A stretch of 32,199 nucleotides of DNA, taken from NCBI GenBank assembly GCA_030041985.1, contig JASIAM010000289.1, positions 1 through 32,199 on the forward strand, in the 5' to 3' direction. Positions 27,258 to 32,199 of this stretch are shown here, one piece after another. The notes beneath the pieces were generated by a model that had not been told where the DNA came from, made no database searches, and was given only the letters and a program-made list of their open reading frames with translations. Position 1 is the stretch's first letter. Each line of letters starts with the position of its first letter. The stretch comes from Bryobacteraceae bacterium. GTDB taxonomy: Bacteria > Acidobacteriota > Terriglobia > Bryobacterales > Bryobacteraceae. The position numbers were made by a program, and so were the translations under genes.

Positions 27258-27287
27258 CATCTAACGTTCTAGGAAAGGATGTTAACT

Positions 27288-28274
27288 ATGGCTAAGCTTT
27301 GGAGGTTGCCTCTCGGGCTGGCCGCTGTTGGAATGTTGGTGGTAGCGAGTGCCTTTGGGCAATCCTACGGTCAGAATTACGGTCCGAACTACAATCCGAA
27401 CTACGGTCAAAACAGAGTTGCCCAGCCTGGTGCGGTGAACTACGTTGAAGGGAATGTTTCGATTAACGGACGTACGATCACGAACCAAACGGTCGGTACA
27501 GCGCTAGTAGAACAAGGACAAACGCTCGAAACGGCTCAGGGCAAAGCGGAAATGTTGCTCACTCCTGGGGTGTTTGTGCGGTTGGACAGTAACAGTGCCG
27601 TGCAACTGGTCCGCAGTTCGTTGGTGAATCCGCAGGTCCAATTGCAGAGGGGCCGCGCGATGATTGAAGTCGACCAGATCGCGAGGGAAAACAACATCTC
27701 GGTGCTGGTCAGCGGGTCAACAACGCGGCTAGACAAGAAGGGACTTTACGAATTCGACGCCGATACGCATTCGGTGGCGGTGTTTAAGGGAAAAGCGACG
27801 GTCCAAGTGGACGATCGCAACATCAATGTTGACTATGGGCAAGAGCTGATGTTGTCGTCCACGGGCAAGCTGAAAGCGCGGAACTTCAACCGTAAAGCGC
27901 CTGACGAACTGTATGCCTGGAGCAAGCTGCGCTCGGAATATATGGCGGAGGCCAACGCCTCATCAGCGCAGATGATTTACGTGGATAACCCGTGGTGGTG
28001 GTACGGGACGGGCTGGTATTGGAACCCGTGGTTTGACTCGTGGGCATTTGTGCCGGGCGGCGGATTTTTCTATAGTCCGTTTGGATTCGGATTCTATTCA
28101 CCGGTGTATCTGGGAGCCTATGGTTTCCGAGGAGGCTATGGCTACCGTGGATTGCCTGGCCGTGGAGCATACGGATATCGGGGATTTGCTGAGGGCCCTG
28201 GACCGGGATTCCATGGAGGTGGTTTTGGCGGAGGCTTCCACGGAGGTTTCGGGGGAGGCGGAGGCCGACGGTAA
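27288..28274 (+). CDS. Exported FecR-domain protein with Gly/Tyr-rich tail
   Basis: This protein has 328 residues from the ATG at 27288, which is 9 bp after AGGAAAGG; the ATG at 27279 touches that site and is unlikely. The signal peptide (LGLAAVGMLVVASAFGQ) is followed by four degenerate YGQN/YGPN/YNPN units. Residues about 45-195 form a FecR domain: 'VNYVEGNVSINGR', 'VEQGQTLETAQGKAEMLLTPGVFVRLDSNSAVQL', 'RGRAMIEVD' and 'VFKGKATVQV'. The C-terminal third is extremely rich in Trp, Tyr, Phe and Gly ('WWWYGTGWYWNPW', 'FGFGFYSP', 'GFGGGFHGGFGGGGG'). In FecR proteins this domain lies in the periplasm, but no transmembrane anti-sigma part is present here. It may be a periplasmic or cell-surface structural protein. 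It ends just before a strong terminator. Confidence 0.87.
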   Translation: MAKLWRLPLGLAAVGMLVVASAFGQSYGQNYGPNYNPNYGQNRVAQPGAVNYVEGNVSINGRTITNQTVGTALVEQGQTLETAQGKAEMLLTPGVFVRLDSNSAVQLVRSSLVNPQVQLQRGRAMIEVDQIARENNISVLVSGSTTRLDKKGLYEFDADTHSVAVFKGKATVQVDDRNINVDYGQELMLSSTGKLKARNFNRKAPDELYAWSKLRSEYMAEANASSAQMIYVDNPWWWYGTGWYWNPWFDSWAFVPGGGFFYSPFGFGFYSPVYLGAYGFRGGYGYRGLPGRGAYGYRGFAEGPGPGFHGGGFGGGFHGGFGGGGGRR

Positions 28275-28350: not shown

Positions 28351-29877
28351 TCACGCGCGGACGGCACCTGATACCGGTAGAAGCCGGCTGCGGATTTGAT
28401 TCATAACATCCGACGCGAGGAAAGGTTTGCGAAGCACGGGAAAATTATGCTCTTCGCAGAGCGCTTCTTCTTCGGGCGGAAGTATTGTGCCAGTCATTAC
28501 AATTACGAGCATGTTGGAAATCTGCCGCAAGAATTCCACTCCGAGTTCCACCCCATTTCCGTCCGGCAGCATGTAATCAAGCAAAGCAGCATTGGGCCTG
28601 TTCTCGCGTACGAGGCGTTGGGCTTCGGTGGCGGATTCGGCCGTGAGAAGGCGCCAACCGGCGTCGGCCATGAGACGTTCCAGGAAATGCAGCAGATCGC
28701 GATTGTCATCGACCAACAGAACCGTGGGATGGGCAGGAGCACTGGCCTCGTGCTGTTCGACCGTGTGGATGTTCAGCTTTTCCCGCTCTTCGGAAATATC
28801 CACGCGCACGCGCGATCCGGGGGTCACCTGATTGGTCACCACCAGGGCGGATAGTGGCTGCGTGAGTTGGCGATGGATGGTGCGCTTCAGTTCCCGGGCG
28901 CCGTATTCGGCACTGGTGCCCTTTTCGAGCAGAAACTGGCGGGTTTCAAATGGGACCTCAAGGGTAAAAGAACGATTGCCCAAGCGCGTATTGACGTGAT
29001 TCTGCAGATCGGTGATCTGCTTATCCAGAATGGCGGAAAGGGATTCGGGAGTAAGGGGCTGATAGGTAATGATGCAATCGACGCGGTTTACAAATTCGGG
29101 TGAAAACCGCTTGCGCACGGAGACCAGGGCAATGTTCTGCAGCTTGCTGGTGAGATCGGGGCGGGGATCACCGGCCTGAGCGGATTGAAAGCCGAAATCG
29201 GGGTTAATCTCGCGAATCATTTCGCGGGCGCCCAAGTTGCTGGTGAGAAACACCAGGCTTTTTTCGAAGTTGACGGTGGAATTATCGCCCAGACGCAGGA
29301 TTCCCTTATCAAGGACGCCGAGCAGGAGGCGCGTCATGGAAGGGGCAGCCTTCTCGATCTCGTCGAACAGGACGAGGGAGAGGGCGCACTTTTCACTGGT
29401 AATGGCATTGAGCTTCTGCTGGGTGAGCATCGGCTGCGTTTCGCGATGGCCTAGGTAACCCGGTGGGGCGCCGATCAATTTGGCCACTTCGTGTTCCATC
29501 TGGAACTCGCCGCAATCGATTTTGAGCACATTTTTTTCGGTGCCGTGCAGGATCTCGGCCAACGCTTCGACGGTTTTGGTTTTGCCGGTTCCGGTCGGAC
29601 CGAGTAGCAGGAACACGCCAACCGGACGTCCTTCGGGGGCCAACCCGGCCTGAAACATCTGAATATACGGCACGATGACACGTGTCGCGGCTGGTTGTCC
29701 TACCACTTTCTGGGCAAGGACCGAGGTCAGGTCTTCAATCGTATCAGCTCCCTGTTTGCGTGTCCGAGACTGCGTGCCTTTCGGTTTTTCCACGCCATCC
29801 TCCGCCTTGATTATATTGGCCGGATTTGCTTTGACTCGGGTTTTCCGTCTCTCTTCAGGACGGTTCGGCTCTTTCAT
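28351..29877 (-). CDS. ClpB/ClpA-type AAA+ ATPase fused to a response-regulator receiver domain
   Basis: This is a 508-residue cytoplasmic protein. Residues 1-45 are basic and look disordered. Residues about 50-350 form one Clp/Hsp100 D2-type AAA+ module: Walker A GPTGTGKT at 93-100, pore loop GYLG at 140-143, Walker B LVLFDE at 168-173, sensor-1 'FLTSNLGA', Arg finger in 'RFSPEFVNRVD' near 265, and sensor-2 'YGARELKR' near 328. Residues 384-500 form a receiver domain: acidic pair D390-D391, phospho-acceptor D434 in LLDYMLPDG, T462 in MTGT and K484 in LRKPF. All key residues of both modules are present. The N-domain and D1 of ClpB are missing, and I see no ClpP-binding loop. Phosphorylation of D434 probably gates the ATPase. 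No histidine kinase is adjacent. No clear ribosome site precedes the ATG. Confidence 0.92.
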   Translation of the reverse strand: MKEPNRPEERRKTRVKANPANIIKAEDGVEKPKGTQSRTRKQGADTIEDLTSVLAQKVVGQPAATRVIVPYIQMFQAGLAPEGRPVGVFLLLGPTGTGKTKTVEALAEILHGTEKNVLKIDCGEFQMEHEVAKLIGAPPGYLGHRETQPMLTQQKLNAITSEKCALSLVLFDEIEKAAPSMTRLLLGVLDKGILRLGDNSTVNFEKSLVFLTSNLGAREMIREINPDFGFQSAQAGDPRPDLTSKLQNIALVSVRKRFSPEFVNRVDCIITYQPLTPESLSAILDKQITDLQNHVNTRLGNRSFTLEVPFETRQFLLEKGTSAEYGARELKRTIHRQLTQPLSALVVTNQVTPGSRVRVDISEEREKLNIHTVEQHEASAPAHPTVLLVDDNRDLLHFLERLMADAGWRLLTAESATEAQRLVRENRPNAALLDYMLPDGNGVELGVEFLRQISNMLVIVMTGTILPPEEEALCEEHNFPVLRKPFLASDVMNQIRSRLLPVSGAVRA

Positions 29878-30053
29878 AGGGCAGACTTGGCTTTTGCTTC
29901 CAATAGTTTACGGTCACAGGGAAGACCGGCCAAAAAACTTGCCCGAGCTGTGACCTCCCTGCGCACTGCCTCTTTTTTTAACATACCGGAGTAGTTTTGG
30001 AACGTTCGATCGTGACCAAATAGTACCGGAAGTTCGGGAATTTTCTCTCGGGA

Positions 30054-30272
30054 TTACCGATGGCGGAAAGTTATGCGTCCTTTGGTAAGATCGTAGGGAG
30101 AGAGTTCCAGGGTGACTTTGTCGCCTGCCAGCACACGGATGCGGTTCCGGCGGAGCCGGCCGGCTAAATGAGCCAGCACGACGCGGTCGTGTTCGAGCTG
30201 GACGCTGAACAGGCCGCTGGGGAATTTCTCCAGCACGGTGCCGGTTACTTCGATGCTATCTTCTTTACTCAT
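30054..30272 (-). CDS. infA: Translation initiation factor IF-1
   Basis: This 72-residue protein has the S1/OB fold of IF-1, which binds the ribosomal A site during initiation. The family pattern is clear: '[25 protein letters not shown]', '[41 protein letters not shown]'. Length and both ends match the standard protein. AAAGGA lies shortly before the ATG at 30272. It follows the cold-shock gene by 53 bp on the same strand, outside any ribosomal-protein cluster in this window. Some details, such as 'HLAGRLRRN' instead of the common 'HISGKMRKN', suggest it could be a second, cold- or stress-linked copy; a genome-wide count would decide. Confidence 0.95.
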
Positions 30273-30325: not shown

Positions 30326-30529
30326 TCAGCCGGTAGTGACGTTGGTCGCCTGCAAGCCCTTGGGGCCTTTGGTCACCTCAAACTCTACCCTGGAGCCTTC
30401 ATCCAGCGTGCGATAGCCCTGCGATTGGATGGCGGAGAAGTGTACGAACACGTCTTCCCCGTTCTCCCTCTGGATAAAACCGTAGCCCTTGGCTGCGTTA
30501 AACCACTTCACTGTACCTTTTTCTTTCAT
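30326..30529 (-). CDS. Cold-shock domain protein (CspA family)
   Basis: This is a 67-residue single cold-shock domain. The start is the ATG at 30529, with GAGG and AAGGAA upstream; a longer frame with an extra 10 residues lacks a site. Nucleic-acid binding motifs RNP1 (KGYGFIQR) and RNP2 (VFVHFSAI) are intact, and the opening '[16 protein letters not shown]' is canonical. Such proteins bind single-stranded RNA and act as RNA chaperones and transcription antiterminators. It heads a two-gene unit with infA. Its leader contains a perfect terminator-type hairpin 57 bp before the start codon, which may be a target of its own antitermination activity. Confidence 0.96.
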
Positions 30530-30585
30530 CTGCCTCGTTTCCTTCTGTAAAAAATGCATTTACTCGTCGGGCCGCTCTGATAGCA

Positions 30586-30919: not shown

Positions 30920-32199
30920 ATGGAAAACTTTGAAAAATACGTGGCAGAGCAAGATCAATTGCACCCAGGGGAGTCGCAGGGGTTAGAGTTGGTGGAGTCG
31001 CCCGAGCTACTGGAAACCGACTTCCCGGAGCATGAGGAGCACCACGAAGAATCTGTTTTTACCGATGACCCGGTACGCGTGTATCTGCGCGAGATGGGAT
31101 CGGTGCGTCTGCTTACGCGGCAGGCGGAAATCGATCTGGCTCGCCGGATGGAGTACGGCGCCATGCGGATGCGCAAGGCGCTCTCGCGCTCTCCGCTGGT
31201 GTGGAGGCGCGTGCTCGGGATCTATGAAGACCTGCGAAAGTCGAAAATCCGGCCGGATCAAGTGATGGAGCTTGGCTCGGACGAAGACGTTCGCGCCCAA
31301 GCCACAGCCGATGTGATGCGGCGCTTCGCCCGGTTCGTGCGTCTGCACCGGGACTGGATGGGCTTGCAGGGCAAATTGGAAGCCACCCCGGAACGGTACG
31401 TAAACGTACGGGCGGAGTTGCGAGGGCGCATTGTCCGTTTGTGGATCGAATGCTCGCGGCAGCTTCGCCGTATTCCGTTTCAGACGCCGCAGTGGAAGGA
31501 GTTTCGAGCGGCAGTGGATCTCGCGGCCGACGAAATCGGCCAGCTCGAAGCAGAACTGCATACAGCACGCGAGCAGTCCGCGCAGGCAGCGGAGTTGAAA
31601 CGGCGGATTCGCGATAAAGAAGCGGAGGCGGGAGCGAGTGGGAAGGCTATGCGCCGCTGGCTGAAGGCGGTACGGAAAGGGGACGCGGAAACGGCAGCGG
31701 CCAAAGCTGCGCTGGTGGAGGCTAACCTGCGCCTGGTGGTCTCGATTGCCAAAAAATATGTGAATCGCGGGTTGCATCTTCTCGACCTGGTGCAGGAAGG
31801 CAACATCGGACTGATGCGCGCCGCCGATAAGTTCGATTACCACCTGGGCTTTAAGTTCTCAACTTACGCCACCTGGTGGATCCGGCAAGCGGTGACGCGC
31901 GCCATCGCGGACCAATCGCGCACCATTCGCGTGCCGGTGCACATGAACGAAAGCCTGACCAAGTTTCTGCGCACCTCCCGGGAGCTGGAAAAGGAACTGG
32001 GGCACACGCCCCACGACGAGGAAATCGCCCGCCGCATGGAGACTACTGTAGAAAAGGTGGAGCACTTGCGGGTGATCTCACGCGACCCGGTATCGCTCGA
32101 CATTCCGGTGGGACGGGATGGCGAATCAGTGTTGGGAGACCTGCTACAAGGGCGTTCGGCGGATTCGATTCTGGAGCCGATTATCGCTCATGATGCGCA
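30920..32199 (+). CDS. RpoD-type primary sigma factor family (C-terminus outside window)
   Basis: The first 426 codons of a sigma-70 protein start at the ATG at 30920. The opening 45 residues are acidic (region 1.1-like but short). Region 1.2 is '[29 protein letters not shown]' at about 50-78. A non-conserved insertion of roughly 150 residues, rich in Arg and Glu, follows, as in RpoD. Region 2 is close to the housekeeping consensus: '[17 protein letters not shown]', '[56 protein letters not shown]'. Region 3 begins with '[14 protein letters not shown]'. Region 4 lies beyond the right edge. It directs RNA polymerase to -35/-10 promoters. The ribosome site is weak. Primary sigma or a close paralogue cannot be told apart without region 4 and the rest of the genome. 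Confidence 0.93.

Follow-up and report, generated by a model that had tools for sequence, protein, structure and literature searches.

The locus examined here raises the question of what a phospho-receiver domain does when it is joined to the C-terminal end of a Clp-type ATPase. The window, a stretch of 32,199 nucleotides from a contig of a Bryobacteraceae bacterium, carries one such gene. Its host is a soil acidobacterium, and many relatives also carry the fused protein. The coordinates assigned to the gene by an earlier note on this DNA are correct and the gene lies on the minus strand; read in frame 1 of the opposite strand, 28351-29877 contains six stops. The gene and the layout of its product are as follows.

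28351..29877, minus strand: fused gene, 508 amino acids, ATG start, intact open reading frame; full-length relatives exist
29074..29628, minus strand: AAA_2 domain, residues 84-268 (Pfam 121.1 bits, above cut-off)
28801..29055, minus strand: ClpB_D2-small domain, residues 275-359, containing R328 (Pfam 58.7 bits, above cut-off)
28729..28791, minus strand: linker, residues 363-383, variable in sequence and nearly constant in length
28393..28722, minus strand: receiver domain (Response_reg), residues 386-495 (Pfam 50.6 bits, above cut-off)

Of the 85 proteins aligned (L074 included), 62 have a linker of 22 residues, and both linker and receiver are more variable than the motor. The N-terminal ∼40 residues vary among homologues and are unstructured in an AF2 model built from an alignment of 61 fused homologues (mean pLDDT 81.9, pTM 0.70). 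Across motor and receiver, the means of 10-residue blocks in this model are at least 72, with the exception of block 231-240 (51). The Pfam domains and the residue conservation described below uphold part of the reading in the earlier note, namely a D2-type Hsp100 motor with a C-terminal, apparently phosphorylatable receiver; the two prove to be conserved as a unit.

The fused form is represented by 84 distinct proteins, 82 with both domains complete and two cut by contig ends. These derive from 119 extracted long-tailed sequences (the window's copy and 118 loci), 85 of which are distinct by their last 380 residues; L074, with a long non-receiver tail and a divergent Walker region, is excluded from the counts. 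L109, whose 3' end is lost at a contig edge, is counted for every receiver column except K484. L076 lacks its 5' end and enters the receiver counts only, while L075 and L077 are fragments excluded from the motor alignment counts. If the fused form is called wherever the match to the query extends into the receiver, 18 of 61 genomes (the window's own and its relatives) harbor it, G020 as two contig pieces. A class-level search of 399 genomes returned matches in 98 at E ≤ 1e-98, with the match spanning the receiver in 30 of the 399. At the phylum level, seven of 396 genomes match at E ≤ 1e-90, and four of these matches, that of the window's genome included, span the receiver. At least 80 loci matched among the named relatives (n=401). 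The fused form is centred on the Bryobacteraceae and Solibacteraceae and is sporadic in other Acidobacteriota, with further fused loci in records titled Blastocatellia, Pyrinomonadaceae and Gemmatimonadetes (a MAG); this taxonomic spread suggests some horizontal transfer. Plasmid carriage was considered and rejected: among the 40 plasmid records that match, none covers more than 80% of the query, and the best 8 of the 40 match the motor only.

A motor that lacks the receiver is present in many Bryobacteraceae genera (L055-L074, L177), mostly downstream of infA, and the window's fused gene has the same upstream neighbours.

30054..30272, minus strand: infA-like gene (IF-1), an upstream neighbour common to many fused and unfused orthologues
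30326..30559, minus strand: cold-shock-protein-like (csp) gene, adjoining infA

The order csp-infA-gene seen in the window is common: of 86 fused loci (distinct by DNA, hence more than the 84 distinct proteins), 48 have infA and/or csp nearby, as do 18 of 22 unfused loci. Because these neighbours are common to fused and unfused loci, the same site carries the motor with or without the receiver. Six genomes (G006, G007, G012, G019, G032 and G035) contain an unfused copy as well as a fused one at another place, and infA adjoins the unfused copy in four of them (G006, G019, G032 and G035). In other genera (L045, L046, L047, L055), a UDP-GlcNAc 2-epimerase-like gene lies between infA and the ATPase. 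This gene is absent from the window, where a gap of 176 bases is found at 29878-30053.

The motor harbors the following AAA+ motifs.

29578..29601, minus strand: Walker A GPTGTGKT, residues 93-100; K99 in 82/82 aligned fused proteins
29449..29460, minus strand: pore loop GYLG, residues 140-143; Y141 in 82/82 aligned fused proteins
29359..29370, minus strand: Walker B LFDE, residues 170-173; D172 and E173 in 82/82 aligned fused proteins
29083..29085, minus strand: Arg finger R265 (FVNR); 82/82 aligned fused proteins

Sensor-1 N214 and sensor-2 R328 (GAR) are each likewise kept in 82/82. The Walker A and B motifs, pore loop, Arg finger and sensor 2 that had been claimed for the motor are thus all present and conserved. 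Conservation extends to a wider set of 124 aligned single-ring proteins, comprising the 82 fused proteins, 20 unfused orthologues and 22 paralogues, in all of which K99, Y141, D172, E173, N214, R265 and R328 are kept. The paralogues are one-ring D2 Clp ATPases without a receiver, found in the window's own genome (L002:1462-2589 and L003:1483-2703) and elsewhere (L178-L197). Over the core, they share 44-50% identity with the motor, and their C-terminal tails have 24-58 residues.

The affinity of the motor within the Clp family depends on the comparison used. NCBIfam scores rank the second ring of ClpB first (223.8 bits), followed by ClpA (200.2), ClpV (196.9) and ClpX (33.5); no ClpC model is found among the best 25 of 55 matches listed, and the scores fall far under the full-length cut-offs because the protein has one ring only. 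With the whole domain as query, a sequence search of the PDB places the motor slightly nearer ClpB (188.5 bits) than ClpC (181.8 bits). In fold comparisons of the whole model, the ClpC1P1P2 entry 8ycx (Z 31.6, rmsd 3.4, 316 aligned) and ClpB entry 6oax (Z 31.0, rmsd 3.1, 307 aligned) are tied, and SKD3 follows (Z 27.2, rmsd 3.6, 318 aligned). Motor matches fill both lists of the fold search, and no receiver structure appears in the best 50 matches of either; for the receiver, Pfam and the sequence search provide the coverage. Judged by sequence, the protein is a single-ring Hsp100 unfoldase whose ring resembles the second ATPase ring of ClpB/ClpC.

The motor also bears a conserved tripeptide.

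29188..29196, minus strand: FGF tripeptide, residues 228-230, at the position of the ClpP-docking loop of ClpC/ClpA

According to the consulted portion of PMC8745299, a flexible loop bearing (L/I/V)-G-(F/L) is what Clp ATPases use to dock on ClpP. The excerpt of PMC5540906 describes ClpB and Hsp104 as lacking the tripeptide and as joining no protease, and places the ClpB M-domain inside the first ring. All 124 single-ring proteins, whether fused, unfused or paralogous, have [FLIMV]-G-[FL] at 228-230. The fused proteins (n=82) display FGF in 71, IGF in six, LGF in three and VGF in two; the unfused orthologues (n=20) FGF in 15, FGL in two, and LGF, MGF and VGF in one each; and the paralogues (n=22), which come from several families of the class, [LMIV]GF throughout (LGF 13, MGF 5, IGF 3, VGF 1). 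G229 and F or L at 230 are found in 124/124, and the adjacent residues 233-236 are variable, with majority residues at 18-29%. The published strict form is matched by 11/82 fused proteins, and the window's FGF falls outside it. Residues 232-235 have pLDDT <50 in the AF2 model, as expected of a flexible loop.

When residues 190-278 alone are compared with PDB sequences, ClpC chains come first (30.1-30.5 bits, against 26.1 for the best ClpB proper), a lead of ∼4 bits; the six best distinct sequences comprise five named ClpC or ClpC1 and one from an entry titled ClpC1:ClpP1P2. The corresponding alignment to Mycobacterium tuberculosis ClpC1 pairs GF with GF, while a displacement of one or two residues separates the GFs in those to Staphylococcus aureus ClpC and to Streptomyces ClpC1. 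A MAFFT alignment with the Clp rings of the window's genome places IGF (L004) and LGF (L006) in the same columns. Both are Clp D2 segments with ClpB as the top NCBIfam model. The full ClpB of this genome (L005) has GAF in these columns and a ClpV-like D2 (L007) has EGM, so that the tripeptide is lacking from both. The genome holds one clpP gene. The analysis therefore favours a ClpP-partner unfoldase over a disaggregase, with docking as a prediction, because the docking-type tripeptide is kept in 124/124, the loop region is slightly nearer ClpC, and ClpB is without the motif. The comparison also reveals an Acidobacteriota set of one-ring D2 Clp ATPases that retain a ClpP-docking-type motif, a set of which no description was found among the titles and abstract openings covered by a literature search.

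The receiver contains the residues D390, D391, D434, T462 and K484, numbered as claimed in the earlier note, and thus has the acid pair, phospho-aspartate, T/S and lysine that define a response regulator.

28576..28578, minus strand: phospho-acceptor D434, in 84/84 distinct fused proteins

Loss of this aspartate across homologues would have spoken against a phosphorylatable receiver; it is present in every fused protein. K484 is found in 83/83 fused proteins where it is readable, the acid pair DD in 78/84 and T or S at position 462 in 77/84. The full set DD/D/[TS]/K is found in 71 of the 83 receivers with a readable lysine, and 12/83 deviate.

The history of the fusion can be read from both domains. 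In a tree with long branches and few columns, a branch with SH-aLRT 97 separates 46 representative fused receivers from 13 others (12 from the neighbourhoods and one from the window's genome). Receiver identity tracks motor identity (r = 0.85, 1035 pairs). The receiver clade is most simply read as one fusion event, after which the two domains would have evolved as a unit. Mapped onto the motor tree, the fused state requires seven changes, only one of which is forced by supported branches; the seven may represent later receiver losses or poor resolution, and these alternatives cannot be told apart. A trace of a two-gene ancestor, in the form of an unfused motor with an adjacent receiver gene, was looked for and not found: among loci L055-L077, receiver matches occur near unfused copies only in L073 and L075, inside larger open reading frames more than 4.3 kb away.

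Some fused genes have histidine kinases as neighbours. A histidine kinase lies within 3 kb of 10/38 fused loci without infA or csp nearby, 1/48 fused loci with them and 0/22 unfused loci, with distances measured from the matched stretch rather than from start or stop codons. 'Without infA' here denotes no infA/csp match in the available flank, which is shortened in 17 of the 38, so that some of these loci may be infA-linked; with full flanks only, the counts are 7/21, 1/27 and 0/15. The enrichment (10/38 against 1/70) gives p ∼1e-4 by Fisher's test, with related genomes that are not independent. Against a chance expectation of 2.6 in 38, the 10 observed give p ∼2e-4, again with non-independent genomes and with a background drawn from the window's genome only (6.0 Mb with 72 HATPase_c matches, one below the family cut-off and not all of them kinases), so that kinases may be more frequent in other genomes. 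The kinase is on the same strand as the fused gene in six of the 10 loci.

Pfam HisKA and HATPase_c domains were found in 7/7 scanned neighbours (L135, L140, L150, L145, L153, L156 and L127, the last a contig-cut fragment) and also in the neighbour at L209, so that all eight loci scanned with Pfam, of the 10 (the other two being L111 and L146), have them. Four loci have record titles of Blastocatellia or Pyrinomonadaceae. At L135, L140 and L150, a PAS histidine kinase gene directly follows the fused gene in the same orientation; at L134, a Blastocatellia MAG, a Ser/Thr protein kinase gene is located downstream of the fused gene instead (L134:2322-4463). At L209, which belongs to a different family of the class, the region upstream of the fused AAA-REC gene (L209:2680-5999) encodes a hybrid histidine kinase together with an NtrC-type response regulator; the regulator, of the sigma-54 type, is directly upstream and ends 14 bases before the matched stretch. 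Near the window's own copy, no kinase gene was found within 3 kb.

The reading to which slightly better than even confidence is given is a signal-switched single-ring Hsp100 unfoldase that feeds ClpP and carries its receiver in cis, with docking and phosphorylation both predicted from conserved residues. Six copies would assemble into a ring, the Y141 pore loops would drag substrate through it, and flexible hydrophobic-G-F loops would dock on ClpP. A histidine kinase would phosphorylate D434 and thereby alter the assembly of the ring, its docking on ClpP or its choice of substrate, with the signal passing through the linker, whose length is nearly constant; phosphorylation might switch the motor either on or off. 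The whole would represent a built-in counterpart of RssB and CpdR, the separate receivers that steer ClpXP. A broader claim is more tentative and falls somewhat short of an even chance, namely that the protein is a self-contained, two-component-controlled protease regulator in which same-chain phosphorylation sets ClpP docking or assembly, and kinases would command degradation directly with neither a transcription factor nor a separate adaptor. The weak points of the ClpP reading are the F that begins 71/82 fused tripeptides, outside the published L/I/V set, and a whole-domain similarity that is about equal for ClpB and ClpC.

Both weak points bear on the rival that the earlier note had put forward, a disaggregase or remodelling motor switched by a two-component signal. 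The Hsp100 motor with its conserved receiver stands, and the disaggregase is not retained as first choice because a protein with one ring only has no first ring and no M-domain and carries a docking-type tripeptide that ClpB/Hsp104 lack. A signal-switched motor that works independently of ClpP, like mitochondrial SKD3/CLPB, would account for ClpB being the nearest NCBIfam model, for the SKD3 fold match and for the replacement of L/I/V by F in most fused members. Such a motor would leave unexplained why xG[FL] is kept in 124/124 beside a variable stretch, in a position where ClpB and Hsp104 have no tripeptide, and the protein has no ankyrin domain among its Pfam matches; this reading is considered unlikely, though it is the leading rival.

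The role of the receiver allows a different reading, in which it serves as a protein-docking or localisation module, such as a substrate adaptor, and phosphorylation has little weight in vivo. The six of 84 proteins that lack part of the acid pair and the seven of 84 without T/S fit this reading, as does RssB, whose phosphorylation tunes rather than gates its activity in the excerpt of PMC7226468. The invariance of D434 and K484 argues for retained phosphorylation chemistry, kinases adjoin some copies, and a pure docking role appears quite improbable. The prospect that an assembly or sequencing error joined two genes is practically negligible: no support for it was found beyond the MAG titles of most records, and the fused form recurs as 84 distinct proteins in many assemblies, among them that of Acidobacteriaceae bacterium KBS 96, a 6.7-Mb scaffold without a MAG label in its record title (L153), with receivers that form one clade. 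The fusion is genuine.

Compared with known systems, both modules are already known, and the novelty is in the fusion, the domain order and the ring type. ClpC and ClpA share with the fused protein the D2 fold, the pore loop and, if the wider form [FLIMV]-G-[FL] is allowed, a hydrophobic-G-F/L tripeptide at the same place. They differ in their two AAA+ rings and Clp N-domain, whereas the fused protein has one AAA_2 domain, no D1 ring, no Clp_N match in Pfam, a C-terminal receiver and a tripeptide that starts mostly with F. Scored over the whole domain in NCBIfam and the PDB, the ATPase is nearest to ClpB and Hsp104; two rings and an M-domain characterise them, while the fused protein, at 508 amino acids and 223.8 bits (cut-off 1232.1), is without D1, M-domain and N-domain and bears a tripeptide of the docking type, though not in its strict form, that ClpB lacks. 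SKD3, the human CLPB, has only a D2-type ring. It is not known to carry a receiver. The likeness of the fused protein to it is confined to the ring (Z 27.2), with no ankyrin match in Pfam. SKD3 itself is mitochondrial and has an ankyrin N-terminal domain, as stated in the portion of PMC9934407 consulted. ClpX is one AAA+ ring that feeds ClpP (PMC7112952, in excerpt), a likeness that for the fused protein includes a putative feeding step; the latter has no zinc-binding N-domain in Pfam and scores 33.5 bits against a cut-off of 359.

Receivers that control a Clp unfoldase are represented by RssB and CpdR (excerpts of PMC7226468 and PMC8973945). RssB delivers sigma-S, and phosphorylation enhances it in vitro (same excerpt of PMC7226468); unphosphorylated CpdR binds ClpX and primes ClpXP (same excerpt of PMC8973945). 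Both are separate proteins that act in trans, whereas in the fused protein the receiver belongs to the motor chain. Bacterial proteolysis is thus known to be steered by receivers as separate adaptors; with a receiver inside the unfoldase, a single polypeptide would suffice to test how a phospho-signal switches an AAA+ motor, and the fused protein would supply a phosphorylation-controlled degradation module. NtrC-type response regulators also combine a receiver and an AAA+ domain in one chain. In these the receiver comes first, the AAA+ domain is of the sigma-54 class and a DNA-binding HTH is present (as in L209), while in the fused protein the receiver comes last and the ring is Clp-type. No receiver fused to a Clp ATPase is described in the titles and abstract beginnings searched, which does not prove absence.

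Two further genes flank the locus in the window. At 30920-32197 lies a divergent gene for a sigma-70 factor with regions 1.2, 2 and 3, truncated by the window end. An RssB-like tie to a sigma factor through rpoD synteny was considered and rejected: the match lies only beside the window's copy, with none near the other copies compared. On the other side, the gene at 27279-28274 is convergent to the fused gene; its product has a FecR domain and a C-terminus rich in Gly and Tyr.
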